DNA of 64,000 bases from Halosolutus halophilus (GTDB lineage Archaea > Halobacteriota > Halobacteria > Halobacteriales > Natrialbaceae). Positions 17,615-46,776 of this stretch are shown here, piece by piece; position 1 is the first letter of the stretch; each line of letters begins with the position of its first letter. Under the pieces are notes generated by a model. That model saw only the letters and a list, made by a program, of their open reading frames with translations. It did not search any database and was not told the DNA's origin. The position numbers were made by a program, and so were the translations under genes. The stretch covers positions 806,001 through 870,000 of the forward strand of contig NZ_CP094974.1 of NCBI RefSeq assembly GCF_022869805.1, read 5' to 3'.

Positions 17615-17715
17615 TCCTCAGAAGTGCTGTGATTCAGCAGACCTGCTGCATACAGTGCGCGAATGTAACATGAGATTCGGCTCGATTTGCGAAGGTGGTG
17701 ATCGCTCAGTACAGA
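17615..17715 (-). repeat. R-element copy 8 (5' half, inverted)
   Basis: Read on the minus strand: CTGTACTGAGCGATCACCAC, GTTACATTCGCGCACTGTAT, GCAGCAGGTCTGCTGAATC. The 3' module is missing. First minus-oriented copy. Confidence 0.75.
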
Positions 17716-17723
17716 GGATTCAA

Positions 17724-17927
17724 TTACCGGTCCGACCAGTTTGGCACTTCATGATGGTCTCTTATGACATGGACAAGAAGATAGAGTGGTAAGAGGAAGA
17801 TTATCAATAGAGAGACGCTACCACCGATATCTCGAAAAATTTGGTTTGTATCAACTGTGACGGTTTCAAGGGCGATTACAGCCAATAAAAAAGTGATGAG
17901 CGCAAGGAACCAATCTGTTCTATCCAT
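17724..17927 (-). CDS. Small two-helix membrane protein (67 aa)
   Basis: MDRTDWFLALITFLLAVIAL and a second helix GGSVSLLIIFLLPLYLLVHVI, ending with a hydrophilic tail HHEVPNWSDR. No family recognised. It sits in the space between two R-element copies of its own orientation. Confidence 0.6.
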   Translation of the reverse strand: MDRTDWFLALITFLLAVIALETVTVDTNQIFRDIGGSVSLLIIFLLPLYLLVHVIRDHHEVPNWSDR

Positions 17928-17975
17928 ATAAACTCACTAACGACATCTATTACAAAGATTTGGATTTGATAAATA

Positions 17976-18170
17976 CGTACGTGTAGTGAGCAGGCGGTTC
18001 ACCGGTTTCGGCGTGAAATAAACAAGGCCGTCGTGCTGATCTCATGCTCTGTATCTTGCACGCCGCTTCTAACAACAGTTCGGGAGTTAGTTGAACTGCT
18101 GCAAGATACAAGGCGCGAATGTAGCATAGATGGTCGTCCACCTAGGAGGAGTACAATTGCTCAATACAGG
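17976..18170 (-). repeat. R-element copy 9 (full length, inverted)
   Basis: On the minus strand it runs from CCTGTATTGAGCAATTGTAC to GCTCACTACACGTACG with TTGCAGCAG, GTTGTTAGAAGCGGCGTGC, and the 3' hairpin GGCCTTGT...CGCCG. It shares the CAATTGTACTCC variant with copy 28. Confidence 0.8.
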
Positions 18171-18246
18171 GGGCGCACAGAACTATTGATACGGATTATC
18201 CCCTTTGCATACCAATGTTTATTGCAGAATAGAATCGTCTTTGCTT

Positions 18247-18429
18247 ATGTCCACGCAGGCCCTCCGTCGGACGATCCGTCGATGTACCGCCGTTCTCGTG
18301 ATAGCATTCGGTGCTGTAATGGCGAATGATGGGCATCAGCAGGAAGATATAGCCTTGTTGGCTCTTTTCGGCGCGGTCCTGTACCTTATGGGAAGCCGCG
18401 TCCTCCAGATGAGGAACTCATCAGTATAG
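18247..18429 (+). CDS. Small two-helix membrane protein (60 aa)
   Basis: ATG 18247: MSTQALRRTIRRCTAVLVIA then a short acidic-polar loop (MANDGHQQED) and helix IALLALFGAVLYLMGSRVL. Basic N-terminus suggests N-in topology. The upstream Met (18205) lies in unconserved sequence. Another tiny envelope gene isolated between repeats. Confidence 0.55.
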   Translation: MSTQALRRTIRRCTAVLVIAFGAVMANDGHQQEDIALLALFGAVLYLMGSRVLQMRNSSV

Positions 18430-18475
18430 ATGGCGAACCGATTCCCGTAGGTAGTTCGCAGGACTACTGATCAGC

Positions 18476-18575
18476 AAATTCAGCACAGTTCCCTTGGCAC
18501 AAATGAGAGTGGATTACTGCATCCACTCTATATTCAGCAAGCCGTTTCTAACAGCCATCCGGGAATTAGATGGAG
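18476..18575 (-). repeat. R-element copy 10 (partial, inverted)
   Basis: TATTCAGCAAGCCGTTTCTA ACAGCC and TCCACTCTATATTCAGCA preserve the central stem region. Both ends are lost or diverged. Confidence 0.5.
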
Positions 18576-29159: not shown

Positions 29160-29224
29160 GAGGCAACCACCGATCGGGCACAACCAGAGACTACATGAGG
29201 ATAGATCACCCACTAAATAGCTCG

Positions 29225-29416
29225 GCTGTATTGACCGATCACCCTCCATCGATCGAGTATTGGCACCTCTGAATTCGAACCCACCATTCAGCAGAAGTGA
29301 GTCAAACTACCGAAATAGCGGGAGAACTTGTGTGCTGAATACAGAGCGTGGATGTCTCGCCCGCTTTCGACACGTGGTTCCAGAAAACACGTATCGACGT
29401 GTACTCAGTCCTACGT
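29225..29416 (+). repeat. R-element copy 12 (full length)
   Basis: Starts GCTGTATTGACCGATCACC, centre CATTCAGCAGAAGTG and GTGTGCTGAATACAGAGCG, end GTACTCAGTCCTACG. Its last base immediately precedes the ATG of the next gene (29417). Confidence 0.75.
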
Positions 29417-29875
29417 ATGAGGCAGAGACACCACCTGATTGAGTCCGTCGTGGGGCTGGTCGGTGCAGCGTTCCTCACCGCCGGCTTGGTGTCCCCCTGG
29501 ATACAGCAGAACCCATCGTATCACGGGGATGTGCCGAGTGTCTACCTCGCCGGTATGCAGAGTGGACTCCAACGGCCGGATTACCTGCTGCTTGGGGGAA
29601 TCGGGGTCACGCTCTTTTGTATCTTCACTCGCCGATATACCACGACCACGAACCGGGTCATAATCGCGACTGGTGGTGGGGCCGTTCTTGCAGTCGGCAG
29701 TAATATTCTGTCGTACGTTCCCGCCTACGCTCCGATCGTTGTCCCGGCACGGGGTGCGTATTTCACGATAGTCGGTGGACTCCTTCTCAGTGGCATCGGA
29801 CTCACACGACCTCGTACCGGCCAAAACGACACGCCGGACAATCCAAGTGGGAGTACAGAACTGGCTGATAAATAG
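29417..29875 (+). CDS. Four-helix membrane protein, fitted exactly between two R-elements (152 aa)
   Basis: From ATG 29417: MRQRHHLIESVVGLVGAAFL then helices at about 10-27, 59-75, 83-100 and 110-130, ending in a polar tail (RPRTGQNDTPDNPSGSTELA). No family recognised. ATG 29348 would place 23 residues within the repeat and is rejected. The stop codon touches the next R-element, so gene plus repeat form a clean cassette-like unit. Confidence 0.7.
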   Translation: MRQRHHLIESVVGLVGAAFLTAGLVSPWIQQNPSYHGDVPSVYLAGMQSGLQRPDYLLLGGIGVTLFCIFTRRYTTTTNRVIIATGGGAVLAVGSNILSYVPAYAPIVVPARGAYFTIVGGLLLSGIGLTRPRTGQNDTPDNPSGSTELADK

Positions 29876-30025
29876 GCGCGTTCTATGCAGCAGCGGCCGC
29901 TCGTTCTGCGCGACCACTGTCAGAAACGGCGTGCTGAATACAGAGGACGTATCCAGCACGGCGGCCCACGTTATTTCGCGGTATAGGGCCTGAACTACCC
30001 GAAAGAAAACCAGCGGACTGACCGC
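29873..30025 (+). repeat. R-element copy 13 (subfamily 2, 5'-truncated)
   Basis: GCGCGTTCTATGCAGCAGCG, GTCAGAAACGGCGTGCTGAA, CAGAGGACGTATCCAGCACG and CAGCGGACTGACCG. It lacks the 5' ACTGAGC module and begins within the stop codon of the previous gene. Confidence 0.75.
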
Positions 30026-33708: not shown

Positions 33709-33932
33709 CCCCTCGACGCTGCTGCGGTTCCTGACTCAGTGCGATTGCAGTAGTGTCGACGTGTATACCTGGATGGCTTGGGCACCGAGATACGTGATTT
33801 GCACCGTTGCAAATAGAGGATACCGTCGTTCCGACGCGAAGCGAGAGATCGCAATAAATCCATCCCCTGTATCCAGCACGCGATTTTTGGTATTTGTATG
33901 ATGGATCAATAATCTCGCTGGTAACGCCTTCA

Positions 33933-34100
33933 TCTGTACAGACCGATCACCGCCCTCCGCAGCTCGAGTTTCAACTCGTGGCACGTTCGCGCGTTCTATG
34001 CAGCAGCGGTTACTCTTTCTGCGTGAACACTGTCAGAAACGGCGTGCTGACTACAGAGCGTGTCTCTGTCAGCGCAAGAGATTACTGTCAGTAGATTATT
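33933..34100 (+). repeat. R-element copy 14 (subfamily 2)
   Basis: Begins ATCTGTACAGACCGATCACC, continues GTGGCACGTTCGCGCGTTCT, ATGCAGCAGCGG and GCGTGCTGACTACAGAGCG, ends CTGTCAGTAGATTATTTC. It stops about 10 bp before the next gene. Confidence 0.8.
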
Positions 34101-34109
34101 TCACGTAAT

Positions 34110-34307
34110 ATGGAGTCGTTTGAACAGATTGCCATCGCCGATCTGAAATTTAGAGTCGTCATCGTTGCTTCGACGCTGGCGTTTTCAACCGTTTTCGTCC
34201 CCTTGAATTTCGGTCTTCAGTCAAAGATGGGTATGCAACTCGGAGTCGTACTCGGGGTCGTCTCCGCCGTTGCAACAGCCTACTTTACGGTAAAGAGGTT
34301 GCCCTGA
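34110..34307 (+). CDS. Small two-helix membrane protein (65 aa)
   Basis: MESFEQIAIADLKFRVVIVA STLAFSTVFV then MQLGVVLGVVSAVATAYFTV, ending KRLP. Two transmembrane helices; no family known. Squeezed between R-element copies 14 and 15, with stop overlapping the start of the latter. Confidence 0.65.
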   Translation: MESFEQIAIADLKFRVVIVASTLAFSTVFVPLNFGLQSKMGMQLGVVLGVVSAVATAYFTVKRLP

Positions 34308-34692
34308 GCAGAACTCTCAGGTGCACACGCGCTTTGTATTCAGCAGATGTCGACCGAATTACCGAGATCCTGTCACAAACGGCGTGCTGAATAGAGTGCT
34401 CTGTAGGATCGCTAGACGACGCTGTGATTAGCCTACTTTCGTCGGAGAGCAGTCAACCACTGGACTAGTATCTGGAATCCACCGTAGTCTCTTGGTTTTG
34501 CAAGGATCTGTTCATCCAGCCATCAGTATTAGGAAAATATTCGTCCAACTCTCACCGCAACTAACCAGCTCCAATTGCCCTGAAGTCGTCGCAGTCTAGT
34601 GATCCTACAGAGCAGAATAGAGAGCATGAGTTCAGCACGACCGTCGGCACGAAGCGGAAGACGAGCGGCGGTCGAGTCACGTCGATTCAGTC
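34302..34692 (+). repeat. R-element copy 15, split by a MITE
   Basis: Left part 34302-34396: CCTGAGCAGAACTC, GCGCTTTGTATTCAGCAG, GCGTGCTGAATAGAG. Right part 34615-34692: GAATAGAGAGCATGAGTTCA GCACG. The 8-bp GAATAGAG is duplicated on either side of the 218-bp insertion. Confidence 0.8.
34397..34614. mobile_element. 218-bp MITE with 21-bp terminal inverted repeats and 8-bp TSD
   Basis: Ends are TGCTCTGTAGGATCGCTAGA(C) and the inverse of TGCTCTGTAGGATCACTAGA(C), one mismatch in 21. GAATAGAG at 34389-34396 and 34615-34622 is a perfect target duplication. No coding capacity; a non-autonomous element mobilised in trans. Parent transposase not in the window. Confidence 0.9.
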
Positions 34693-34718
34693 GCCAGAAC
34701 ATCGATGGTCGTGCCCTT

Positions 34719-35849
34719 TCACTCGACCGGCTCGGCTTCGGGGAACTGATAGCCCCCGTCGAGAATCTCCTCGCGCGGACCGTACAGTCGGACCGTATAG
34801 TTCCACCCCTCTGGCGCGTAGAGGAAGTTCGGCTGGTCGGGATCATCGCCGAAGTGAATCGTGACGCTGCCGTCGTCGTCTCGCTCTGCGGTTACGTTGT
34901 TGATCGAGTACGCGTCGTACTCGTTTTCCTCGAGGTACCAGTCGCTGTTGTAGACGGTGACCGACCAGTACCCGTCGACGGGGACGTCGTCGACGGTGAG
35001 CGTATATGGCGTTTCGCCGTCGTTCTGTTCGGGCGTTCGCCAGAGAACGAACTCGTCCGTCTCCGGACTTCCACCCCAGGCGATCGCAGTGCCGAGGAAA
35101 TGCTTGACGGGATCGACCTCGTCGGCGTCGCCCCACACGCCCCGGGAGTCGTCCATCGTCTCTCCGACCGTGATGAGCGCCTCCCGGATTCGCTCGAGCG
35201 AGTCCTGATCCCAGTTGGGTATCTCGAACGTGCCGGGCGATCGTTGACTCGCCGTGATCTCGTCCTGGATGGCGTGAACGGTCTCGACGTCGTCCGGATC
35301 GTTCGGATCGAATAACGTGCGGACCAGGACCAGACAGTACCGCGTCCCGACTTCGTCCTGTGTCAGCGTGTATTCGCCGGCGGTTGTGGACGATCCCCTC
35401 AAGTAGTTATCTTGATTGATGACGATCAGCAACTGGTAGCGGTCACCGGTGTCCGGTTGGGTGACGGTGACCGGTTCGGTCAGGTCGAAGACGCCAGCCG
35501 AGTAGAGGGTATCACGATTCATCTGGATGACGTTCTGCTCGTCGATGGGGACCAGCTCTCGGAGGTGATAGAACTCTCCGAACCCGCCCAGTTCGGCGTA
35601 TCGCGCGAGGTACGTGTCGGACTCTGCGCGCGGGTAGTTCTCCCACGTTACCGGGACTGGCTCGTCATCTTCCGTCTCGTTTTCAGCCTGGTGGGTATTC
35701 GCCTCCGGGGAGTGGTGGCTGGCAGTGGCGCTGCCGCCGCCCATCGCGAGTAAGCCGGCGAGACCCGCTCCGCGAAGCGCGGTGCGGCGGGTTGCTCGCA
35801 GCGGTTCGGCATCCGATTCCCTCGTCGTGTGGTGTGTCTTATCGCTCAT
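34719..35849 (-). CDS. Tat-exported DUF1254/DUF1214-domain protein (376 aa)
   Basis: Start at MSDKTHHTTRESDAEPL (35849) gives a Tat signal (TRRTALRGAGLAGLLAMGGG). An acidic linker is followed by DUF1254 (YPRAESDTYLARYAELGGFG, QNVIQMNRDTLYSAGVFDL) and C-terminal DUF1214 (DGYWSVTVYNSDWYLEENEY, YSINNVTAERDDDGSVTIHF, YNYTVRLYGPRE-like end). Such proteins are exported in bacteria and archaea; activity is unknown. No lipobox. Runs against the flanking R-elements. Confidence 0.8.
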   Translation of the reverse strand: MSDKTHHTTRESDAEPLRATRRTALRGAGLAGLLAMGGGSATASHHSPEANTHQAENETEDDEPVPVTWENYPRAESDTYLARYAELGGFGEFYHLRELVPIDEQNVIQMNRDTLYSAGVFDLTEPVTVTQPDTGDRYQLLIVINQDNYLRGSSTTAGEYTLTQDEVGTRYCLVLVRTLFDPNDPDDVETVHAIQDEITASQRSPGTFEIPNWDQDSLERIREALITVGETMDDSRGVWGDADEVDPVKHFLGTAIAWGGSPETDEFVLWRTPEQNDGETPYTLTVDDVPVDGYWSVTVYNSDWYLEENEYDAYSINNVTAERDDDGSVTIHFGDDPDQPNFLYAPEGWNYTVRLYGPREEILDGGYQFPEAEPVE

Positions 35850-36044
35850 GGCGCATGTCTCTCTGAGTGCCCCACACAGTGGATGGGACCGACTCACACT
35901 CTCGCACGTCAGCGCCCCATATAATACGATAACGATAATTGGAAATTATGTCATGACAAGATGATAGTATTGACTTGGTGATGAACTCTGCTCCGTAAGT
36001 TATGATGGATTCCGCCGGCCAACCGAGTACATAGACGTTCTCGA
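35850..36044. other. Upstream region of the DUF1254 gene
   Basis: AT-rich stretch 35925-36000 (ATAATACGATAACGATAATT) probably carries its promoter. Nothing else recognised. Confidence 0.35.
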
Positions 36045-36456
36045 GCATCACCAGATGCTACAGTCGCGCCCTGTATTCAGCAAGAACTAATCGAACTACC
36101 AGAACACTGTTAAGAGCGGCGTGCTGAATACAGAGGGTGAGCCGTGTTTAGACGCGAAAATTCGAGGGTAACGACAGCCACAGACCGAGAGTCGATACGA
36201 AGGGGCTGGAAATGGAATCGCCATCGAGGAACTAGTCTCTACAATTTCGCTTCTACAGCCGTTTTACCGAAGTTTGAGGGACCATCGCCTCGATCGAGGG
36301 TCAAACCTCTCGACGAGGTATCGGATAGCGGATCAGCATCGAGCCACAACACCGCTCTCACTCGCGTCGAAACAAGGCCGAGAAGATGTGTTCAGCACGA
36401 CGGGTCTGTTTGTTTCATCCCGAATCCAATGAACCAGCCGTTCAGTAGACCTGCTT
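36045..36456 (+). repeat. R-element copy 16, split by an ISH1-derived MITE
   Basis: Left part 36045-36140: GTCGCGCCCTGTATTCAGCA, GCGTGCTGAATACAGAGGG. Right part 36381-36456: GATGTGTTCAGCACGACGGG, AATGAACCAGCCGTTCAGTA GACC. The insertion interrupts the GAGGATGAG block between the two competing stems. Confidence 0.75.
36141..36378. mobile_element. ~238-bp non-autonomous ISH1-like element (MITE)
   Basis: Left end GCCGTGTTTAGACGCGAA and right end (inverted) GCCTTGTTTCGACGCGAG match the terminal repeats of the complete IS at 41025-41960. The interior has no transposase. Target duplication is eroded. Confidence 0.7.
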
Positions 36457-36493
36457 ATTGACCGTCTGGCAGTGATTATAAAGTGAGGGAATA

Positions 36494-36757
36494 TCAGTTG
36501 CCGTCGGCTGTTTCAAGTGGTGAATTACAGAGCCTACATCGGTTTCGGTCAGGCCTGTTCGGTGCGCCGCATTCAGAACAATTAGTCCGAGCCGGTGGTT
36601 CGTCGGTATCGTCCCACGATAGAACCGCCATTACGAGAAGGATGAAGAATACAAACAAGAACAACCCTAATGGACCGAATGAGAGGAGAAAAATGGCAAC
36701 GAAGAAGACAGGGAAGCCAATGAGCACGTACACCAAGAGTGTTGAGAGACGATCCAT
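36494..36757 (-). CDS. Two-helix membrane protein with C-terminal zinc ribbon (87 aa)
   Basis: Helices LLVYVLIGFPVFFVAIFLLS and LGLFLFVFFILLVMAVLSW are followed by TNCSECGAPNRPDRNRCRLC, two CxxC pairs of a zinc ribbon, in the cytoplasm. This architecture is frequent among uncharacterised archaeal membrane proteins. Between R-element copy 16 and the flavoprotein gene. Confidence 0.7.
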   Translation of the reverse strand: MDRLSTLLVYVLIGFPVFFVAIFLLSFGPLGLFLFVFFILLVMAVLSWDDTDEPPARTNCSECGAPNRPDRNRCRLCNSPLETADGN

Positions 36758-36940
36758 GGATTATACTCTAAAACGTAGGATCAAAAATCTCTAGTCAACG
36801 GGTTCTGGGTGTCCGATCACTTACTTTGAATAGAACGCGCGAAGGGAGCAAATATAATCGGCTTTTTCAAACGGTATAGAAATAAGATCAGACCGACAGT
36901 TATGACATGAGTCTCAGGGGGTGACGTATACGTTACTCGG

Positions 36941-36951
36941 AAATACTTATT
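36941..36951 (+). promoter_or_regulatory. TATA box of the flavoprotein gene
   Basis: AAATACTTATT centred about 30 bp before ATG 36976; leaderless spacing. Confidence 0.5.
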
Positions 36952-36975
36952 GCTGAGACACAAACCGATCAGTGC

Positions 36976-37566
36976 ATGAGTGACACAGATGTCATCGTCG
37001 TCGGTGGCGGGCCGGCCGGATTGAGCGCTAGTCTCTACACGCAGAAGAACGGGCTCGAAACGATTCTCTTCGACACGGACTCGACGTGGATGCACAAGGC
37101 CCACCTGTTCAACTATCTCGGTATCGGCTCGATAGATGGGTCGGCGTTCATGGAGACCGCGAGAACGCAGGTAGACAGTTTCGGTGTCGAACGAAAGCAG
37201 GGTGAGACGGTCGAAGCCGTCACTCCCTCGGACAACGGGTTTGTTGTCGAAACACCAGCGGACGAATACGAGGCCACCTACGTCGTGCTTGCGACCGGCG
37301 CAAACCGTGACTTGGCAGAATCGCTCGGCTGCTCGTTCGATGGAGATGTCGTAGACGTTGATGTCACAATGGAGACGACCGTTACCGACGCGTACGCGAC
37401 AGGAGCGATGGTTCGAGCCGAAGAGTGGCAAGCAATTATTTCCGCCGGTGACGGTGCAGCTGCCGCGTTGAACATCCTTTCGAAGGAGAAGGGGGAGCAC
37501 TATCACGACTTCGACGTTCCGGAGGACGCCGCCGGCGTATTTGGCGCGATGGCAGCCGAAGAGTAG
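36976..37566 (+). CDS. Thioredoxin reductase-like FAD/NAD(P)-binding protein (196 aa)
   Basis: MSDTDVIVVGGGPAGLSASL YTQ is the FAD-binding GxGxxG. YLGIGSIDGSAF, TYVVLATGANRDLAESLGC and DAYATGAMVRAEEWQAIISA GDGAAAA correspond to the split FAD domain of thioredoxin reductase-like proteins. At ~196 residues it lacks the NAD(P)H domain and the CxxC redox pair, so it is a short haloarchaeal relative, perhaps accepting electrons from a partner. Single gene with its own promoter. Confidence 0.8.
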   Translation: MSDTDVIVVGGGPAGLSASLYTQKNGLETILFDTDSTWMHKAHLFNYLGIGSIDGSAFMETARTQVDSFGVERKQGETVEAVTPSDNGFVVETPADEYEATYVVLATGANRDLAESLGCSFDGDVVDVDVTMETTVTDAYATGAMVRAEEWQAIISAGDGAAAALNILSKEKGEHYHDFDVPEDAAGVFGAMAAEE

Positions 37567-37639
37567 CGGAAAAGCGAGTGAACAGCAGCGCATTCGTCCC
37601 TCTTCCGAGTGAGTAGTCCTACACACCAGACGACACGAT

Positions 37640-37690
37640 CATGCTGAATTCGTGCTCTCTGGTTAGCACGCCGTTCTTGATAAACAATGG
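37640..37690 (-). repeat. R-element fragment (central stem, inverted)
   Basis: GCTGAATTCGTGCTCTCTGG and GCACGCCGTTCTTGATAA resemble the inverted middle of the element, facing copy 17. Short and diverged. Confidence 0.35.
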
Positions 37691-37721
37691 ATAGATTGCG
37701 ATTCACAGCATTACATCGTTC

Positions 37722-37832
37722 ACCTGTACTGACCGATCACCACCGTCGCAAATTGAGTCGAATCTCGTGCTACATTCGCAGCCTGTAGTGAGCAGTGGTT
37801 TTGCGAGAATTACTGTGTAAAGGATAGGATTT
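37722..37832 (+). repeat. R-element copy 17 (5' half) joined to IS6-like end
   Basis: CCTGTACTGACCGATCACCA through GCTACATTCGCAGCCTGTAG is the 5' half; it is cut by an inverted GGCTTTGTTGAAATCC (37816-37832), so an IS6-type event removed the rest. Confidence 0.7.
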
Positions 37833-37861
37833 CAACAAAGCCTCTCAGATGCAACTCCTAA

Positions 37862-37871
37862 TACATATACC
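37862..37871 (+). promoter_or_regulatory. TATA box of the 37896 lipoprotein gene
   Basis: ATACATATAC about 30 bp upstream of the ATG. Confidence 0.45.
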
Positions 37872-37895
37872 GAGAGGTGGACATCATTTGGCTAA

Positions 37896-38393
37896 ATGCG
37901 ACTTCCCTCCCACCGTGTCGCCGTCACTTGTATTATAACAGGTCTGGTGCTCGTTGCCGGGTGCTCAACACCATTCTCTGACGACGAGACACAGATACTA
38001 ATCGAGAACGAGCACGAGTCCGCCTATCAGGTGACTGCCTTCCAGAGTGCGCAGGGGAGCCAAGACGGACTCAAGTTCGACGTCACCACCGAGGACGGAG
38101 AACGACGGATCGTAGGCTTTGACGAGCTACAAGACGGGGCGAACTACACCAATGTCACCCTCAGCGGCGCGGAGCGTTCGGTACGAGTGCCGACGATAGC
38201 GGATGACAACAGTACACAGTTCGTGGACGACTGGAACGAGAGTCAGACGACCATCTACGTCGTCGAAACGTACGAGAATGAGCTAGTGGACATTCACGTC
38301 GTAGAGTGCACTCGTGATATGGCTCTCACGTTCACAACTGCCTCGGACGGATCATTTACCACCTCCTCACGCTGCGCAAAGAGCGTTCATTGA
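37896..38393 (+). CDS. Sec-type lipoprotein of unknown function (165 aa)
   Basis: MRLPSHRVAVTCIITGLVLV AGC: a signal without twin arginines, hydrophobic core and lipobox VAGC (Cys about 23). The mature part is acidic and beta-rich (TQILIENEHESAYQVTAFQS, VVETYENELVDIHVVECTRD) with two late Cys that may form a disulfide. No recognised family. Single gene with its own TATA box; followed after 100 bp by R-element copy 18. Confidence 0.75.
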   Translation: MRLPSHRVAVTCIITGLVLVAGCSTPFSDDETQILIENEHESAYQVTAFQSAQGSQDGLKFDVTTEDGERRIVGFDELQDGANYTNVTLSGAERSVRVPTIADDNSTQFVDDWNESQTTIYVVETYENELVDIHVVECTRDMALTFTTASDGSFTTSSRCAKSVH

Positions 38394-38492
38394 CCCCGGT
38401 TCAACGCATTACTAGCGACGTTTGTGCGCGGCTTGTTTGATAGATAGCAAAGACAGGAACGACGCGAAGAGCCAGCGATTGCTACCTACTTA

Positions 38493-38636
38493 TCCTGCAC
38501 TGAGCGATCACCTCCCATCTGATCGGCGGCCAGTTCTTGCTAGATTCGCGCCTTGTATCTCGCAGAGTCGCAACGAACTCCCGAGCTATTGTCAGAAACG
38601 CTCTGCTAAATCCAGAGGATAGGTTCGGCGAACGAT
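38493..38636 (+). repeat. R-element copy 18
   Basis: CCTGCACTGAGCGATCACCT, CTAGATTCGCGCCTTGTATC, GTCAGAAACGCTCTGCTAAA TCCAGAGGATAGGTTC. The 3' module is missing; the adjoining minus gene's end overlaps its last 45 bp. Confidence 0.7.
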
Positions 38637-38864
38637 CATGAATTCATCTACGTCGTAGTCACGTCCGCTGTTTAGATTCGTGAGAGAAGGGGCATCAGTA
38701 CCCGTGAGGAAGAACCGATAGTGACCTCCCCTAGTACCCTCAACTTCGAACGAGTTTTCAGAGATATTAGTAACGGTTTGAGCGTGTTTTCGTCCATTCC
38801 AGATCACTTCGCTTCCCTTCTTAACATTCTCCATCTCCTCCAAGATTTCGGTCATCGATTGCAT
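38592..38864 (-). CDS. Small hypothetical protein (90 aa; 87 from Met 4)
   Basis: MTEILEEMENVKKGSEVIWN GRKHAQTVTN, then beta segments ENSFEVEGTRGGHYRFFLTG and GRDYDVDEFMIVRRTY. A small beta-barrel-like fold is plausible. Its C-terminal ~15 codons fall in an R-element edge, so the tail may be a read-through replacement. Function unknown. Confidence 0.55.
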   Translation of the reverse strand: MQSMTEILEEMENVKKGSEVIWNGRKHAQTVTNISENSFEVEGTRGGHYRFFLTGTDAPSLTNLNSGRDYDVDEFMIVRRTYPLDLAERF

Positions 38865-39103
38865 ACTATTGGATTGGAATCATCTCTTGAAAACCGTTTC
38901 CGCCGTTACTGGTTCCCAAGAGGTTGTGACCGATTCATGCTGTGTATCTTGTACGAGCGCTATCGACCTCCCCATGTTCTATCATGACCAGCGTGACCGA
39001 TACAGAGGACATTCAGCCATCGAAACAGTCGAAGCCATCGAGAACTATCGGGGAGCGCAGCAGAATACAGAGATTCAAGCCCCGGCCCACAGTTGCACTT
39101 TGT

Positions 39104-40174
39104 ATGGAACTTCCTCCCTTCGAACTTGAACGGTGGCTCGATGAATACGAGCCAGACGCTGATTTGATGCTCGCTGAAAGCGGGGTTCGGAGTCTTCCAG
39201 CAAGCCGTTTCGATCTCGATGTGGGTGAACTCGGGTACGTCATTCCCACTGACGGTGCTCCGGAATTTAGAGCCGCTATCGCCGAGCGTTACGACCGCGA
39301 CACTGAGGAAGTCGTTCTCACCTGCGGAACACAGGAAGCCGACTTCCTCACATTCATGGCCCTCCTTAGCGAGGGAGACCACAGCGTAGTCGTCTCACCG
39401 ACCTATCAGTCGCTTTCGAGTGTTCCCAACGCCGTCGGTGACGTGAGCGAAGTTCGAACCGAGCCACCGGAGTGGAACCTCTCGGTTGATGCCGTCGCCG
39501 AAGAGATACGGCCCGAGACGCGACTGGTTGTCCTCACGAATCCGAGTAACCCGACGGGGAAGTACCTCGGGCCGGAGACGATGCAGGCACTGTACGACCT
39601 CGTCGAGGAGAACAACGCGCACCTCCTCGTTGACGAAGTGTATCGAATGCTGGCCGACGAGCCTCACGCGCCCGCCGCCGCGCTCGGCCCGCGCGCGATC
39701 TCGACCGCCGGTGTCTCGAAGTCGTACGGTCTTGCAGGGGCGCGTCTCGGGTGGGTCGTCGCAGTCACGGAGATCGCGGACGCAGTGCGGAAGTGGAAAG
39801 ATTACACGACAATCTCACCCCCGATCGTTGGCCACCACGTCGCTCAGCAGGCGCTCGGTGAGCGAGAGGCCGAGATTCTTGAGGCGAACCGTGCCCACGC
39901 GAAAGCGAACCGGGAACGCGTCGCCGAGTTCGTCGAACGCTACGATCTCGACTGGTTCGAGCCGACGGGCGTAAACGGCTTCCCGACGATCCCGGACGGG
40001 TTCGAGAGCGGGAAGGAGTTCTGCCGGTCGCTGTTCGAGGCCGAGAGTGTCGTCCTCGCTCCCGGTGACGTCTTCGGGTATCCCGACCGGTTCCGAATTG
40101 GGTTCGGTCTTCACACCGAGGAACTCGAGGAGGGCCTCGACCGAATCGGTCGTTACATCGAAAACCACCGCTGA
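39104..40174 (+). CDS. PLP-dependent class I/II aminotransferase (356 aa)
   Basis: ATG 39104 (MELPPFELERWLDEYEPDAD) chosen; the upstream in-frame Met at 38942 lies in unrelated sequence. Fold type I signatures: VLTCGTQEADFLTFMALLSE, TNPSNPTGKYL (Asn), LLVDEVYRML (Asp/Tyr pair), the PLP Lys in GVSKSYGLAGARLGW, and a late FRIGFGLHTEEL (substrate carboxylate Arg). Transfers amino groups between amino and keto acids; amino-acid specificity unclear. Stands alone among envelope genes; R-element copy 19 follows in 35 bp. Confidence 0.85.
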   Translation: MELPPFELERWLDEYEPDADLMLAESGVRSLPASRFDLDVGELGYVIPTDGAPEFRAAIAERYDRDTEEVVLTCGTQEADFLTFMALLSEGDHSVVVSPTYQSLSSVPNAVGDVSEVRTEPPEWNLSVDAVAEEIRPETRLVVLTNPSNPTGKYLGPETMQALYDLVEENNAHLLVDEVYRMLADEPHAPAAALGPRAISTAGVSKSYGLAGARLGWVVAVTEIADAVRKWKDYTTISPPIVGHHVAQQALGEREAEILEANRAHAKANRERVAEFVERYDLDWFEPTGVNGFPTIPDGFESGKEFCRSLFEAESVVLAPGDVFGYPDRFRIGFGLHTEELEEGLDRIGRYIENHR

Positions 40175-40207
40175 CCGGCACTAATAGATCCACGAAATCA
40201 GAACTCT

Positions 40208-40368
40208 CGGCGATTCGGAATAGGCGCTGTATATTCAACAGCATTCGAACAAATCACCGAACTGCTGTCAGGACCGGCGTGTTGAATATAGAGAACGAGT
40301 TCAGCCGACGATCTCGTTTGGTTCACGTCTAAATACGTGAACCAACTGTTCAGTAGACCTGCGAACGT
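40208..40368 (+). repeat. R-element copy 19 (3' two thirds)
   Basis: TATATTCAACAGC, CTGCTGTCAGGACCGGCGTG, GAATATAGAGAACGAGTTCA GCCGACG, hairpin GGTTCACGT...ACGTGAACC, end GTTCAGTAGACCTGCGAAC. Its last ~75 bp are almost identical to copy 20. Confidence 0.8.
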
Positions 40369-40427
40369 ACCGATTTCTATTTCGGTATGGCGAAAATCAT
40401 ATGAGATTTCTTACCAGATTTTAACTA

Positions 40428-40970
40428 ATGCATTTCAGACGAAAATTCCTCGCCTCATCGGGTGCTGGTCTTATAGGGGTCGGGGTTGCAGGCTGCCTTT
40501 CGGGAACGAATACCCTCTCTGCCGAGTGGCTCCAATTGAAAGCCATTAGTGTTGAATGGACTCACAGCGGACGCGCGTATCAAGACCAGATTCTTCAGTT
40601 GATGTCCGATGGAGAAGACGAGCTAAGGGGTAGAGTGGCATCAGAATATAATGGTGTCATTTCTTCTCCTTCCGAAGTTACTGCTTCGGAGGACTTTCAT
40701 GATGACCTCCAGTTCGATTTCGAGGCGATAAAATACGTCGTTGGGTTTTGCGGGAGCGACTTCGATTCGGACGATGAGTTTGGGTGTCTGAATACAGGAA
40801 CCCCCCGAGAAGATTTTAATGCTGTTCAATTCGGTGACCAAGCTGATGTCGAAGTAAGGGATAACCAATTCCACATTCACGACGTTCAGAGCGGGGGTAT
40901 CTCGGAATGGAATACTGACATCAATGAATTTGAATGGTCTGAGAAGCATGACTATCCAATTGATAAGTAG
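40428..40970 (+). CDS. Tat-exported lipoprotein (180 aa)
   Basis: MHFRRKFLASSGAGLIGVGV AGC: twin arginines and lipobox VAGC. Mature domain acidic with two Cys (about 107 and 119) that could bridge; segments LQFDFEAIKYVVGFCGSDFD and ADVEVRDNQFHIHDVQSGGI. No family recognised. AT-richer codon use than most neighbours suggests distinct origin. It sits between copies 19 and 20, whose 3' modules are nearly identical: a candidate recently inserted unit. Confidence 0.75.
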   Translation: MHFRRKFLASSGAGLIGVGVAGCLSGTNTLSAEWLQLKAISVEWTHSGRAYQDQILQLMSDGEDELRGRVASEYNGVISSPSEVTASEDFHDDLQFDFEAIKYVVGFCGSDFDSDDEFGCLNTGTPREDFNAVQFGDQADVEVRDNQFHIHDVQSGGISEWNTDINEFEWSEKHDYPIDK

Positions 40971-41024
40971 ATCACCTGTATTTAGCGATCAGCGCCTTCG
41001 CAAATCGAGCCACATTCGCGCCCT

Positions 41025-41960
41025 GGGTCTTGTTTAGACGGTCGAAATCATCAGAGTTAGGCCCTGAGCGATTGTTCGATGTTTCTGACGGCGGCCTTAA
41101 GGACGAGTTCTCGGAACTGTCCAAACCACGTTCTTGCCTTAAGTGTTGAACCGAATCGCTTGCGCAACGCGAAAAACATCGATTCTGCGATAGACCGTTG
41201 ATGGTAGGTTTCATCATTAATCCGAGCATTGTGTGTGGCATCGAGCGAGTAGAACTCACGATGCTTGATCACCGGTCTAATCCCCTCGTTTCGCAGCATC
41301 TGGCGGAGTTCATCCCAATCAAACCCTTTGTCAGCGACGACGGTTTCCACGTTGCTGAGGTTTCTTTTCAGGACTTGCCACGCAATCTGCGTGTCATGTG
41401 GTAGGTTCATCGAGCAGTGTATATCGAGAATAGCTCGCGTGGAACAGTCTACGAGAATAGTGGTTTTGACCGACTCAAACGTCCCTTTGACGCGTTTTGC
41501 GTAGTTATGGCTGGACGAGCGATGAGCGATGCAGGTTGAGTCGATTGCTTGTACCTCTCCGGTATCGAATAGTTCCGCCGACAGCTGCAACAGCATCCGC
41601 CAGACGGGCATCTTGAGATCCTGTTTTCGAACACAAACGGTGGTGAAGTCCGGCAACTCATCCGGTGAAAGGCCGAGTTTGGCGACAATAGCTGGCATTT
41701 CTCGAAGAACGTCTAGCAACCGTCGGTAGGAGTGATCGAGGTATTCCCGAAGACCATGGATCGCTACGATCACCCAATCAGCGTAGCCACCCTTTCCTTT
41801 GCTGAGAGGTTCTTTCGAACCGCTTCCGACAGCTTTTTGAGACAATTCGACGCATCGTTCGGTGAAGCGGGCCAGTTTGGAGTGCACATCCACCTGTGCT
41901 CGCTTCATTTCCTAGAATTCCCGACATAGAGGCAATATTACTAGCGTCTAAACACGGCCC
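41025..41960 (-). mobile_element. Complete ISH1-like insertion sequence (IS5 family), ~935 bp
   Basis: Terminal repeats GGGTCTTGTTTAGACG (left) and inverse GGGCCGTGTTTAGACG (right). The flanks repeat CGCGCCCT: 7 to 9 bp depending on how terminal G/C is assigned (8 is typical of the ISH1 group). One transposase gene spans most of it. Remnants of the same family: 6044-6370 and the MITE at 36141. Confidence 0.9.
41057..41908 (-). CDS. ISH1-like (IS5 family) transposase (283 aa)
   Basis: Intact DDE transposase: QAIDSTCIAHRSSSHNYAKR (first Asp), VVADKGFDWDELRQML (second Asp), RSIAESMFFALRKRFG (Glu with the YREK-like context) and C-terminal WFGQFRELVLKAAVRNIEQS. Length is normal for the group. Cuts and pastes the IS by its terminal repeats. 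Being intact, it could mobilise the 36141 MITE and perhaps explains the truncated copy at 6044. Confidence 0.9.
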   Translation of the reverse strand: MKRAQVDVHSKLARFTERCVELSQKAVGSGSKEPLSKGKGGYADWVIVAIHGLREYLDHSYRRLLDVLREMPAIVAKLGLSPDELPDFTTVCVRKQDLKMPVWRMLLQLSAELFDTGEVQAIDSTCIAHRSSSHNYAKRVKGTFESVKTTILVDCSTRAILDIHCSMNLPHDTQIAWQVLKRNLSNVETVVADKGFDWDELRQMLRNEGIRPVIKHREFYSLDATHNARINDETYHQRSIAESMFFALRKRFGSTLKARTWFGQFRELVLKAAVRNIEQSLRA

Positions 41961-42125
41961 GCGCCCTGTATTCAGCAGATCCTGACCGAAATCCCGAGTC
42001 GCTGTCACGAGCGGCGTGCTGAATACAGAGCATGAGTTCAGCACGACGATCTCGTTTGGTTCACGTCTAAATACGTGAACCAACTGTTCAGTAGACCTGC
42101 GGAGTAACCGCGAACGGTGCGCCAC

Positions 42126-43409
42126 CTACGTTCCAGTTTCCGGATTCGAACTGATCGATGACTGTTCGATCGGTGACTCCCAGAGTAAGATCACAACCGA
42201 ACCGACGACCAATATTACACCTGCTGCCGAAAGTGCGATTAACGGTGAGACGATATCCGAGATCACGCCGCTTCCGAGCTGAAACGGGATGACGGTTACC
42301 GCACTCACCATCGCCATCGCGCTCAAGACAGTTGCACGACCGAGCGTCTCGATGCGGTCGTTCACGTACTGTCCCGCAAGCACTCGCGTCGGCTCAACAC
42401 ACGCCCATCCGACGAACAACGCGACGAGCGCTATCGGAGGTACGAACACCATTCCTGTCAGAAGCCCACCGACGAGGAGCGGGACTGCAATAAACCACCG
42501 ACGCAATCCGACCCGCTCCTCGATAAGACTGATACGGTAGCTGATTGCCGCCGAGACGAGATTGATCGCTGCATAATACACCCCCAGAAGCGTTTCGACG
42601 TTCTCGGTCGAGAGAGCGAGTGTGTAGGGGTCTCCTTGACCGGGAACCGGGAGTAAGAAAGTTAGACGCATATTCAGGTCGGTCACGACGGACTCGAATA
42701 TCGGCTGGAGGAAAATAAACACGAGATAGGTAACGGCCGAGAACAGCACGAAGTAGTAGACGATGAACGATCGAATGCGACGCTGACCGACAGCCTGTTT
42801 GACGACACCCCACGCCTCTCGGATGCCCATCTCGCTCGAGTCGCTTTCCTCGTAAGTCGCCGGTTCGTCCAGCGTCACGATCACGAGCAGGCCTAACCCA
42901 GTGAACAGCGCAGCTGCGAGAAACGGGTATGCGAGGTCGAGATCACCGAGGTAGCCACCGACGAGTGACGCACCGACACCGGCCGTCAAGGCAATCGATT
43001 GCCCACGTCCACGAACGCGGGTGAACTCGTCACTTGCAGACACGTCCGTGAGCGTTTCATAGACCCACGCATCCTCCGTTCCCGAGCGGAAGTTATAGCC
43101 AAGCGACCAACAGATAAAGAGGAGGGCGAACGCGAGAAACGAAGACGCGAACGCGATGCCAACTAACGTCGCCGTAATGAGTGCCGACCCGATGAGAAGG
43201 CTGTTTCGGCGCCCAATCCGGTCACCGACGTACCCGGTCGGCATCTCGCCGAGGACTGTCGTAAGGTTGTAAAGCGCCTCGATGATGACGATTTGCGTGA
43301 AAGATAATCCCTGCGAGAGAAAATAGAGGTACATGATCGGCCGATAGAACTCGACCGCTTCCGTCGCTTTGTAGAGATAATATTTGAAAACGGCTCTGGT
43401 GATCGCCAT
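42126..43409 (-). CDS. MFS transporter (427 aa)
   Basis: Start at MAITRAVFKYYLYKATEAVE (43409); the 37 residues upstream are not homologous in pattern. Twelve helices: early FYRPIMYLYFLSQGLSFTQI, motif-A-like GYVGDRIGRRNSLLIGS, long second half with ISLIEERVGLRRWFI. Drug or metabolite exporter of the MFS-1 type; substrate unknown. Its stop codon is 18 bp from R-element copy 20 and its upstream flank is 110 bp from copy 21. Confidence 0.85.
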   Translation of the reverse strand: MAITRAVFKYYLYKATEAVEFYRPIMYLYFLSQGLSFTQIVIIEALYNLTTVLGEMPTGYVGDRIGRRNSLLIGSALITATLVGIAFASSFLAFALLFICWSLGYNFRSGTEDAWVYETLTDVSASDEFTRVRGRGQSIALTAGVGASLVGGYLGDLDLAYPFLAAALFTGLGLLVIVTLDEPATYEESDSSEMGIREAWGVVKQAVGQRRIRSFIVYYFVLFSAVTYLVFIFLQPIFESVVTDLNMRLTFLLPVPGQGDPYTLALSTENVETLLGVYYAAINLVSAAISYRISLIEERVGLRRWFIAVPLLVGGLLTGMVFVPPIALVALFVGWACVEPTRVLAGQYVNDRIETLGRATVLSAMAMVSAVTVIPFQLGSGVISDIVSPLIALSAAGVILVVGSVVILLWESPIEQSSISSNPETGT

Positions 43410-43519
43410 ATCCGAATGGTCACACCACCCATCGGTAATGACTTCGGTAACCACCTGCGTTCTCCGGTTCTCTCTTCGGACTGAAACGTGTGCAGAAACT
43501 GCGATGAGTTCCGGATACA

Positions 43520-43719
43520 CGATACTGACAGATCACTCACCTTCATAGATCGACCTTCAACCCGTGCCACATTCGCGCCTTGTATTCCACAGAAGTCGAC
43601 CGGACTACCGAGATGCTGTCACAAATGGCCTGCTGAATAGAGAGAACGAGTTCAGCACGACGGTTCCGTTTGTGTCTCGCCGAGCCAATAAACCAGCCAG
43701 TCAGTAAATCTGCGAACTA
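43520..43719 (+). repeat. R-element copy 21 (full length)
   Basis: CGATACTGACAGATCACTC, CGTGCCACATTCGCGCCTTG, TATTCCACAG, CTGCTGAATAGAGAGAACGA GTTCAGCACGACGG, CAGTCAGTAAATCTGCGAAC. Ends 4 bp before the stop codon of the lipoprotein gene. Confidence 0.85.
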
Positions 43720-43723
43720 ACCG

Positions 43724-44224
43724 CTACGTTTTTCTCGAGTAGTCGATCGGACATACTCTTCTAGTGTCCTCCTCTATAACCCAGAACTCGTACGCGAGGC
43801 TATCACAGTTGTCCAGAAGGCGAATCCAGACGGACTCCTCGTAGCGGACCTGTGCCGTCGCACACTCGACGGTATCGCGCCCCCCGGCGTCGACCTCGTC
43901 GAGCGATTTGCCCTCCCAGTCGCCGCCGTCGACGCGAGCGAACAGTTCGTAGTCACCGGGCGTCGTTCCCCAGTCGCAGTCCGCGACCTCGCCGTGCACG
44001 CGGGCGTCTTCTTTCCCGGGGATCTCGTGGGAGGACCGGTGGACCGTCTCTCCATCCCGGTCGACGCGAAGGTCGAACCGGTGGGGAGCAGAATCCCAGT
44101 TGCTTACCGAGAGTCGAGCGAGTTGCATCGGGTGAGTACGTAACTCGGAGACGAGGTCTAGGCACCCGGCGGTCGAAGCCGTCATAGCTCCCGCGAGCGT
44201 CCCGAGGAGGGCGCGGCGTCGCAT
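43724..44224 (-). CDS. Tat-exported lipoprotein (166 aa)
   Basis: MRRRALLGTLAGAMTASTAG C: arginine-rich Tat signal with lipobox STAGC. Mature part is beta-rich: ARLSVSNWDSAPHRFDLRVD RDGETVHRSSHEIPG, DYELFARVDGGDWEGKSLDE, WIRLLDNCDSLAYEF with Cys pairs. Resembles haloarchaeal small immunoglobulin-like surface lipoproteins (as do 46034 and 3011). Role unknown. Flanked closely by copies 21 and 22. Confidence 0.75.
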   Translation of the reverse strand: MRRRALLGTLAGAMTASTAGCLDLVSELRTHPMQLARLSVSNWDSAPHRFDLRVDRDGETVHRSSHEIPGKEDARVHGEVADCDWGTTPGDYELFARVDGGDWEGKSLDEVDAGGRDTVECATAQVRYEESVWIRLLDNCDSLAYEFWVIEEDTRRVCPIDYSRKT

Positions 44225-44281
44225 ACGACCCGTGGCTCACGTGTAGTAATAGATTTTCTGAATATGGTGTCAGGAGAGACG

Positions 44282-44440
44282 CCTGTACTTGGCGATCATC
44301 ACTTTCGCAGATCGGGGGGTCTCGTGGTGTATACGCGTCTTCTATTCAGCAGATCTGACCGAACTACTGACCTGCTGTCAGTAACGGAACGCGAGAGACA
44401 GAAAACGAACTCACCAAACCGAGTTCAATTCTCAGGGTTC
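44282..44440 (+). repeat. R-element copy 22
   Basis: CCTGTACTTGGCGATCATCA CTTTCGCAGATCGG, CTATTCAGCAGATCTGACCG, CTGCTGTCAGTAACGGAACG CGAGAGACAG. The nested CTGAC/GTCAG stem is especially clear. 3' module diverged. Confidence 0.75.
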
Positions 44441-44538
44441 TGTGTCACGCAGTTCGTAAGAGCCGAATCAGTCATGCTGACCAGAATGTACCCATACCGC
44501 CCAACATTTTTCACCGCACAGAGAAGTGACTGACACAG

Positions 44539-45774
44539 ATGCCATCGCGAGATAGTAGACGCGGCTTCCTGTGCGCTTGTTTTGGAGGTATTGTGGCGAT
44601 GGCCGGGTGCATGTCGTCCAGAACGGACGTTGACCACGGAACACCTCCCTTCGAGAGCGACCCGTGGCCCATGGTACATTTCGATGCACAAAACACCGGT
44701 TATACACCCGAGGTGACCGGGCCACAGTCAGCGGTTTCGGAACAGTGGAGTCAGATTACTGCTTACGGAGCGAACGTCGATGTCTCGTGTCCGATACTTG
44801 CCAACAATCGAGTCTACACAGGCATGAGTACCGATCGGGCCGTGCTAAGCGCTTTTTCAGCCGCTGATGGAACCGAAGCGTGGCAATTCCAGTCCGGCGT
44901 GAGCAGTTCTACCCCGGCTGCCAGCGACGGACGTCTCTACTTCGGCGACGACGGGGTTATTTACGCAATCGACAGCGAAGACGGGACTACAGAGTGGTCC
45001 GTCGACACGGATGGCTCGCTGATGACCTCGGTCACGGTCAGAGACGGGACAGTATACACTTGGGGCGGCCCCAGAAGCCGGCGATTGTATGCAATTGACG
45101 CAGAGACAGGGGCGATCGAGTGGACACATACAACGGCCGATCTTGACGGTCCCACCAACGATGTCCCGCCCGCTGTCCATGCGGATGGAGTTGTGGTCGC
45201 GGTGGATGTCTACAGCGAAAGTTCGAGTGCGTCGCAAATTCGCGGACTAGCGCCGGATGGCGAGGAACAGTGGCGGTACGAGAACCCCACTGGACAGTCA
45301 TCGATTTCCGCCCCGGTAGTCCAGGACGGACGTGTCTTTGCGTCGGTCGGTGGGCAGGGAATTGTCGCACTCGATAGGATGACTGGGGAGGCCGAGTGGG
45401 TCTACCCTGTCGATACTTTTCGAGCAGTGAACGGAATCATGTCTGGTCCAGCCATCGCTGAGGGGGTCGTCTACGGAACCAGTGGTGGCAGAGAACTGGT
45501 TGCGATTTCGCAGACAGATGGAACCATCGAGTGGCAAATCGATCTCGGACTCCCCACGATTTCCTCGCCAGTCATCACGGGCCGTCAGTTGTATATCGGG
45601 ACGACCGATCGGACTGTCGGATCGGACAGAGAGTCCGAAGTCTTCGGAATCGACACTGACGATGGTACGGTCGATTGGCGGTGGACGGCACCGAACCCTG
45701 TAACGACAACGGCTAGCATCGGGGACAGTACCCTGTTTGTTGCAACGGATAGGACGCTACACGCGCTTGCATGA
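44539..45774 (+). CDS. Tat-exported PQQ-type beta-propeller lipoprotein (411 aa)
   Basis: SRRGFLCACFGGIVAMAGCM: Tat motif and lipobox MAGC (Cys about 24). WPMVHFDAQNTGYTPEVTGP is the entry motif of BamB-like/PQQ propellers, followed by blades LSAFSAADGTEAWQFQSG, IYAIDSEDGTTEWSVDTDG, LYAIDAETGAIEWTHTTAD, IVALDRMTGEAEWVYPVD, LVAISQTDGTIEWQIDLG and FGIDTDDGTVDWRWTAPN. Likely surface-anchored binding or scaffold protein. Flanked by copies 22 and 23. Confidence 0.85.
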   Translation: MPSRDSRRGFLCACFGGIVAMAGCMSSRTDVDHGTPPFESDPWPMVHFDAQNTGYTPEVTGPQSAVSEQWSQITAYGANVDVSCPILANNRVYTGMSTDRAVLSAFSAADGTEAWQFQSGVSSSTPAASDGRLYFGDDGVIYAIDSEDGTTEWSVDTDGSLMTSVTVRDGTVYTWGGPRSRRLYAIDAETGAIEWTHTTADLDGPTNDVPPAVHADGVVVAVDVYSESSSASQIRGLAPDGEEQWRYENPTGQSSISAPVVQDGRVFASVGGQGIVALDRMTGEAEWVYPVDTFRAVNGIMSGPAIAEGVVYGTSGGRELVAISQTDGTIEWQIDLGLPTISSPVITGRQLYIGTTDRTVGSDRESEVFGIDTDDGTVDWRWTAPNPVTTTASIGDSTLFVATDRTLHALA

Positions 45775-45824
45775 TAACAGAATCAGCGTATATTTTTATC
45801 GAACGAGTTTGAATTGTGTGTGGA

Positions 45825-46020
45825 CAGTTATCCGTTCTAGTTTAGCAGAATTGAGCCGAATTTCGCGCCATATTCGCGCCCTCTATGCAGCAGCGGTCGA
45901 GCGTTATACCTGGACACTGTCAGAAACGGCGTGCTGATTGCCGAGTAGACAGCCATCACGCCGCGTCTGTTGATTTCCAGCCAATAGTGATGAGCCAGCC
46001 GCTATGTGTAGATGCGAACT
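45825..46020 (+). repeat. R-element copy 23 (subfamily 2)
   Basis: TTTAGCAGAATTGAGCCGAA, CATATTCGCGCCCTCTATGC AGCAGCGG, GTCAGAAACGGCGTGCTGAT, ATCACGCCGCGTCTGTTGAT TTCCAGCC, CTATGTGTAGATGCGAACTG. Ends 14 bp before the next stop codon. Confidence 0.75.
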
Positions 46021-46033
46021 GAGCGTTGTACTG

Positions 46034-46522
46034 TTACTCGTCGTATCCCGGAATCGAGATGGGTTCTCCGGCCTCGTTCAGATTGGCCCAGACATCACCG
46101 GTGTGCTCGACGACAACTTCGAATTGATACGTACCTCTCCCATCCTGAGCTCGGGAGTTGAACGATACTACTTCGTGATTGGCGTGACGCTTTGAGGCCG
46201 CGGTCAGGCTGTAGACACCATCTCCTGTATCCAAGCCTTGAACTACCATCTTGGGTTCGCCACTAGCGGGCGCATCAACCGTCGTCCAGACTGGACGTTC
46301 GGTATTCCCTTCGTGGGAGCCATAAACCAGTGTCAGCCGTACCGGTTCTGTATTCCCGGTATCGCTTCGAACGACGATTCGTTCAAGGGGAGGTTCCGAG
46401 GTGGACGCTGCGTCGGTACCGCCGTCAAAAGAAAGGGCAGAACAGCCAGCCAACGCGGTCAGCGTCGTCACTCCGCACGCAAGGAGGCTTCTCCGCGATG
46501 TGGACGGGGACAATTCGACCAT
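46034..46522 (-). CDS. Tat-exported lipoprotein (162 aa)
   Basis: TSRRSLLACGVTTLTALAGC: Tat motif, lipobox LAGC (Cys about 27). After a Ser/Thr linker, LERIVVRSDTGNTEPVRLTL VYG, MVVQGLDTGDGVYSLTAASK, TYQFEVVVEHTGDVWANLNE: an all-beta, immunoglobulin-like domain. Similar overall to 43724. Unknown role. Single gene between copies 23 and 24. Confidence 0.75.
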   Translation of the reverse strand: MVELSPSTSRRSLLACGVTTLTALAGCSALSFDGGTDAASTSEPPLERIVVRSDTGNTEPVRLTLVYGSHEGNTERPVWTTVDAPASGEPKMVVQGLDTGDGVYSLTAASKRHANHEVVSFNSRAQDGRGTYQFEVVVEHTGDVWANLNEAGEPISIPGYDE

Positions 46523-46562
46523 ATCACCGATGTACTACGTCTCGTAGATGAAAATTTCGGTA

Positions 46563-46776
46563 CTGCTATCTACACACTCTACACGAAGCGATTACTCTCC
46601 CACGTGATCGGCCACCAACTCGTGCCACATTCGCGCTTTGTATCTTGCACCGACTCGACTAACTACCACAATGCTGTCAGAAAGTGCGTGCTGACTACAG
46701 AGCATGAGTTCAGCACGTTGGCTTCATTGGTTTCCCGTTGAAGCCGATGAACCAACCGTTCAGTAGACCTGCGAGT
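46563..46776 (+). repeat. R-element copy 24 (full length)
   Basis: ACGAAGCGATTACTC (weak 5' end), CGTGCCACATTCGCGCTTTG, CTGTCAGAAAGTGCGTGCTG, CATGAGTTCAGCACGTTGGC TTC...GAAGCC, GAACCAACCGTTCAGTAGAC CTGCG. Confidence 0.8.

Follow-up and report, generated by a model that had tools for sequence, protein, structure and literature searches.

Several described systems bear on the repeats analyzed here. Mobile insertion cassettes (MIC231 of Bacillus cereus and the qnrD mic; definition in PMC3913671) resemble the units reported below in that inverted repeats bracket a passenger, no transposase lies inside, the target is duplicated, and mobilization in trans by a parent insertion sequence (IS) is presumed. 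The present units differ in their long ends (~110–130 bp with the tip), their IS5-type tip and their haloarchaeal setting, and most copies are tip-less and fused into many-cassette arrays with a conserved palindromic junction. Integron arrays and CALINs, including archaeal integrons (PMC9668308), likewise consist of tandem single-gene cassettes with palindromic repeats in one orientation, and many of their cassette genes are of unknown function. In contrast, most of the present arrays contain no intI, the attC core motifs are missing, gene orientation is mixed, and the free units have terminal inverted repeats (TIRs) and an 8-bp target-site duplication (TSD). The main text of the archaeal integron paper (PMC9668308) names neither Halobacteriota nor Euryarchaeota.

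The IS5 family (NF033579) is represented here by a transposase associated with the same tip and an 8-bp duplication, and by a relative inserted into a repeat (41026–41960); unlike an IS5 element, the cassettes have no transposase, the internal IS sequence being replaced by passengers and repeat modules. The MITEs, PATEs and SMRs described in Haloquadratum (PMC3119063) are also transposase-free and trans-mobilized, include elements that target other elements, and in one MITE type (ISH2) carry an ORF, but they are short, mostly non-coding and not organized in gene-cassette arrays. TIME-COMP structures (PMC4133298) similarly use non-autonomous ends to mobilize any DNA between them, but they derive from Tn3, comprise two complete miniature elements, and have neither tip-less fused junctions nor long arrays. 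In the open-access literature we found no description of haloarchaeal integron-like arrays or of the tip GGCTCTGTTGAAAYCC.

Here we analyze a 64,000-nucleotide stretch of the Halosolutus halophilus genome (the window, at its full length), in which genes alternate with a repeat family that we call R-elements (R). These arrays resemble bacterial integron arrays in raw sequence, yet they appear to be built from transposon ends: R-elements are probably fused ends of IS5-type transposons that carry genes but no transposase, i.e., mobile insertion cassettes, a reading drawn from sequence comparison.

R-elements form uniformly oriented arrays

The window has ~30 copies of R, with 37 profile matches at E<1e-3. 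A model based purely on sequence and derived from 16 copies in the window locates R at no fewer than 150 places in the 5.06-Mb chromosome and finds it in 34 of the 41 genomes searched, the own genome included. The full element comprises a left module (CTGTACTGAGCGATCACC...TCGTGCCACATTCGCGC), followed by a palindromic core of ~70 nt (TATTCAGCA - 39 nt - TGCTGAATA) and a right module (GATGAGTTCAGCACGACGG...CGTTCAGTAGATCTGCGAAC). Copies are highly divergent, with a mean column identity of 57%. The median gap between copies is 825 bp in the own genome, and 97 of 108 neighboring pairs share the same orientation (binomial p about 1e-18).

A copy without the left module often opens a run, as it does in 12 of the multi-copy runs. 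The array starts at L046 8450–8500, L052, window 18453–18652 and L049 5980–6100 share the motif CAGTACAGG.GAAGGCGTTACCG..., which follows a degenerate tip and a CCGCAGAG/CTCTGCGG hairpin and may be an array anchor. We note that a stretch inside the window array, 36817–37626, is kept at ~72% DNA identity in most family genomes, so that the array does not consist purely of accessory genes. R was also considered as a fossil ORF, since frame 1 of one subfamily is protein-like, yet this frame is interrupted in most copies and the idea was rejected.

Table 1. Coordinates of R-elements, genes and related features (window positions; the last two rows give positions of arrays in the own genome)
Feature	Position	Strand	Evidence and remarks
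Upstream R (copy 12)	29214..29351	+	Profile; left module and core recognizable, right module decayed up to the ATG
Putative passenger gene, 152-aa predicted membrane protein	29417..29875	+	ORF
Downstream R (copy 13)	29872..30021	+	Profiles (29872-30000 in one); core border GCGC abuts the stop codon, left module absent
Smaller R run with cassettes	2727..9319	+	Profile
Short R run	17641..18571	-	Profile
Start-type R, no left module	18453-18571	-	Degenerate tip precedes at 18652
Main R run, single-gene cassettes between copies	33919..47505	+	Profile
DUF1254/DUF1214 cassette	34719..35897	-	G002 and G129 have units of 93% identity that end in R halves
~240-bp transposase-less relative of the IS at 41026-41960	36140..36380		Boundaries approximate
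R split by an insertion sequence	40958..42109	+	Pieces: 40958-41025 (left module) and 41961-42109 (core plus right module)
IS5-family IS	41026..41960	-	Bears the tip GGTCTTGTTTAGACG; encodes a transposase at 41057-41908; sits in an R, at its core border
MFS transporter cassette	42126..43520	-	Unit 96% identical in congener G002, R remnants at both ends
Best-preserved full R (left module, core, right module)	43510..43723	+	Stop codon of the next gene from 43724
Adjoining R run with cassettes	48183..56118	-	Profile
Cassette with gene 48461-48967	48256..49086	-	82% identical to solitary unit L214 1927-2916
R arrays, own genome, first group	~560-580, 776-890 (window inside), 1030-1050, 1070-1100 kb
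R arrays, own genome, second group	1912-1938, 2998-3018, 3700-3730, 4052-4066, 4918-4960 kb

A gene in contact with an R core

The initial annotation had described one gene as packed base-to-base between two R-elements. Its ATG at 29417, its stop codon (TAG, 29873–29875) and the R core that begins at 29876 (GCGCGTTCTATGCAGCAG...) are borne out by the sequence. On the upstream side an R is indeed present, but it does not extend to 29416 as proposed: the profile fades at ~29351–29353, and the 65 bases that precede the ATG are either a decayed right module or the gene's own leader. A shorter R model places the two copies at 29273–29353 and 29856–30021.

The encoded protein has no match in Pfam or NCBIfam. 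Searched against 125 family genomes, it has matches at E<=0.001 in 21, the own genome included, with 26–36% identity once the gene itself is excluded, and a paralogue lies inside another R array (G000:C1:1043409-1043747). Of the 19 loci at which distant homologues lie, 17 are free of R in their vicinity, and R is therefore not intrinsic to this gene. The gene is best read as a captured passenger, and its contact with the downstream core reflects an R that lacks the left module.

Spacing between genes and R-elements

The other tight joins listed in the initial annotation are borne out, with gaps of 0 (43723/43724), 8 (46025/46034) and 16 nucleotides (42109/42126) and an overlap of 13 (40970/40958), except at 34302, where no ORF of >=80 aa has its end. 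Such spacing had been described as expected for gene cassettes, an argument that gains no statistical backing. An R edge lies within 16 nt of an ORF end in 9 of 58 cases in the window, as against 10.5 (sd 2.1) expected when each R is put at random within its own intergenic gap; in gaps this short, chance alone yields as many tight joins, and they were rejected as a signal. As a general rule, the absence of room for a separate promoter fails as well, with 40–110 bases between the start and the nearest R in most window genes. Gene direction relative to R is mixed in the window (~13 same, ~12 opposite).

R-to-R intervals behave as exchangeable cassettes

One part of the proposal that genes here are cassettes with an attached recombination site is upheld, in that R-to-R intervals act as exchangeable cassettes in which homology starts and stops within R. 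BLAST comparison of array against array reveals duplicated gene units with homology limits inside R. Congener G002 gives the same picture, with R remnants at either end of units such as the MFS unit (42086–43587, 96%) and the DUF1254 unit (34621–36084, 93%). More distant homologues of the DUF1254/DUF1214 gene carry no R. At the syntenic locus L046/L114, two congeners have different cassettes between the same flanks, and several further genomes have the anchor genes side by side and lack the array.

At base level the exchange borders are sharp and coincide either with the core edges, at GCGC to the left and CAGAG to the right, or with the outer R ends. Around cassette bodies that are 96–98% identical, the R modules are 70–87% identical in five of six comparisons; around bodies of 96–97% identity, the modules differ by 18–30% between arrays H and J and by 20–25% between array F and G002. 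Since near-identical bodies carry differing modules, the modules are either replaced or diverge much faster than the enclosed gene, as if R were preferentially converted or mutated. Taken over H/J, F/G002_C7 and J/G002_C4 (five of six comparisons), the module differences amount to 13–30% and are mostly transitions.

Solitary units have inverted-repeat tips and target duplications

Scanning of array starts and ends uncovered a common tip, GGCTCTGTTGAAAYCC, which lies outward of the module arms, by ~38 nt on the right-module side or ~43 nt on the left-module side. It occurs 57 times in the genome with <=2 mismatches, compared with 0 for the reversed pattern. Among 2526 inward-facing tip pairings, 13 are flanked by an 8-bp TSD at <=1 mismatch (~1 expected), and the TSD is perfect in 9 (0.04 expected). 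One of the 13, G007 12207–13185, is a complete IS of the IS5 type, with GGCCTTGTTTAGACG as its tip; another, 218 bp long and located in the window, bears the differing tip TGCTCTGTAGGATC and is probably unrelated.

Five loci (L214, L205, L117, L118 and L121) contain solitary gene-carrying units with inverted-repeat tips and no transposase. The L214 unit (1927–2916; G000:C1:4519926-4520915) has both tips, the TSD TCACTCCA and a passenger of 170 aa, and congener G002 has the empty site, a single uninterrupted TCACTCCA. Close to this site G002 carries another tip-bounded unit, for which the own genome is empty. The L205 unit (1013–1988) has the TSD GTAGCAAC and a methyltransferase-like passenger, and in G003 the tips bound a whole three-cassette array with a TSD matching at 7 of 8 positions. 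TIRs, the lack of a transposase, an 8-bp TSD and an empty site in G002, all features of mobile insertion cassettes, are thus found in solitary units; bracketing of this kind is confined to them, the array-internal cassettes having no tips, and the window array has no intact flanking tips or TSD. TIRs together with 8-bp TSDs on solitary units point to transposition rather than to integron-type recombination.

The cassette at 48256–49086 connects the two forms. Its homology to the L214 unit sets in precisely at the boundary between the 43-nt tip and the module arm, and an R core stands in place of the L214 tip. Because the window gene 48461–48967 is a homologue of the L214 passenger, the same gene is seen once on its own, in a transposon-like unit, and once within an array.

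These units also bear on the view that R is an old dispersed MITE-like repeat, piled up in tolerant gene-poor islands with no relation to the genes in between. The high divergence of the copies, their clustering in islands, and the accumulation of other insertion sequences in R would suit such a repeat, but a gene together with its R halves is found again elsewhere as a unit, units of the tip-gene-tip form stand alone with TSDs and, in one case, an empty site, and the orientation is uniform; we regard this view as very unlikely.

A second subterminal end type with the same tip (GGCTCTGTTGAAATCCTATTCTTCAGAT...CAGCTGTTACGTAGAT.TGCGAACTGAACG) is seen at L176 1501–2202 and at window positions 771, 2277 and 4556; of the right module it shares the outer part alone.

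One IS5-family element shares the tip and a second type inserts into R

The cassettes themselves contain no transposase. The element at L202 3477–5628 has the same tip, GGCTCTGTTGAAAYCC, a perfect 8-bp TSD (AAATTCTT) and a 275-aa transposase of the IS5 family (NF033579, transpos_IS5_2; 216 bits, cut-off 140). An IS6-like tip and the 8-bp TSD had suggested IS6/IS26 as the mobilizer, an idea rejected on the absence of any PF13610 (DDE_Tnp_IS240) match, i.e., of an IS6-type transposase, in the genome.

The IS that splits an R in the window is flanked by the 8-bp duplication GCGCCCTG (41018–41025 and 41961–41968), and its transposase also matches NF033579 (41060–41905, 208 bits, over the cut-off). 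Eleven further insertions of this type occupy the same position of R with differing 8-bp sequences, and four more lie in or near the mirrored position. R is accordingly also a preferred insertion target, of this second IS5 type. The tip of this type reads GG.CTTGTTTAGACG, and its target is the 8 bp outside the TATTCAGCA arm or sometimes a place near the mirrored one; R-targeting copies are found in the window (41026–41960), at L091, L095 and L104, and in arrays D, F, H and J. The short relative at 36140–36380 also sits within an R, between the pieces 36041–36141 and 36381–36464.

Proposed origin of the arrays

A free unit opens with a tip and the right module, followed by the passenger gene, the left module and a second tip, so that the two R modules are its subterminal regions. 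The tip starts with GGCTCTGTTGAAAYCC and insertion duplicates 8 base pairs, all of which is seen in the sequence. We propose that such units are moved in trans by the transposase of an IS5-family element with the same tip. Array neighbors would have been fused with loss of their outer tips, so that the ~70-nt core joins the left module to the right module of the next unit; the core-linked structure is observed, and its origin is our proposal. Passenger genes would sit wherever they were captured, which is why a stop codon may touch R. Recombination or gene conversion between R copies would then reshuffle the arrays, as identical genes with different R modules suggest.

The 39-nt core spacer was considered as the remains of two tips and rejected, its alignment with the tip sequence being no better than that of shuffled tips. 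Within a core, the arms co-vary (odds ratio 23, p=1.4e-10), but no such association is found between the ends of a cassette (odds ratio 2.2, p=0.16), which argues that the core is inherited as a unit of its own rather than as halves of adjacent transposons. The uniform orientation of neighbors counts against the joined-ends explanation, because independent transposition fails to account for it.

These observations are compatible with a variant in which the arrays are a haloarchaeal integron analogue derived from transposon ends, the core being an active exchange site where cassettes enter, are swapped and are ordered unidirectionally, while single cassettes and whole arrays also hop in the manner of IS5. 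Inheritance of the core as a unit, uniform orientation and distinctive array starts keep this variant in consideration, as a minority reading that is unlikely but of real weight.

A true integron- or attC-like site, used by a recombinase in trans, with the tip-bounded units as a secondary fate of cassettes, was our initial main reading and was dropped after the tips and TSDs emerged; we now consider it distinctly unlikely. It would explain why R orientation is uniform within arrays, why the array-opening R, which has no left module, has its own conserved upstream motif, why the core arms co-vary as a unit, why switch points fall exactly at the core borders GCGC and CAGAG, and why congeners differ in the cassettes between the same flanks; in addition, integrase genes lie inside two arrays. 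Against it, TIRs and TSDs flank solitary units, exchange borders flank the core on both sides instead of marking one crossover point, gene orientation is unbiased, and most arrays, including those of the window, have no integrase nearby. Nor is the attC signature RYYYAAC ... GTTRRRY enriched in R, with 20 and 8 matches of the two motifs in 168 copies and ~26 expected for each. The genome has 11 matches to the integrase family PF00589, but the window array and its immediate surroundings have none; three are near arrays, at array H only, and the best of them is XerA-like and below the curated cut-off. An attached site-specific recombination site of the integron kind, as first proposed for this locus, is not supported by the motif counts, the mixed gene directions and the lack of an integrase at the window array. 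Tyrosine-recombinase genes or fragments in or beside array H are located at G000:C1:3713835-3714776, 3719263-3720054 and 3706310-3706705, and one array-H recombinase is 77% identical to an integrase from a Natrinema salinisoli plasmid, where it likewise lies inside an R array (L001 9163–9837).

Least probable of all, and close to negligible, is a structured regulatory RNA or intergenic terminator with incidental mobility, for which the intergenic location, the palindromic core and its pairing, covarying arms would speak, and which was rejected on the lack of an Rfam match in the window, the absence of a consensus fold and an ordinary consensus folding energy (z -1.28), with half-modules at transposon ends bearing TSDs and the presence of R whatever the gene orientation also against it.

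If R-elements are joined transposon ends, the arrays would provide a concrete mechanism by which haloarchaea collect and shuffle single genes of unknown function, namely non-autonomous transposon cassettes concatenated into chromosome-wide arrays, and cassette arrays would account for a large share of the accessory islands of Natrialbaceae. The system offers testable tools in its ends, its tips and its candidate transposase. Should the core be an active exchange site, it would represent an independent archaeal origin of an integron-like system.

Among the passengers, bacterio-opsin-activator-type HTH_10 regulators and DUF7344 proteins are recurrent (window 33403–33708; L114 12331–12855), and the transposase-bearing element L202 3477–5628 is also among the units with HTH_10/DUF7344 passengers.
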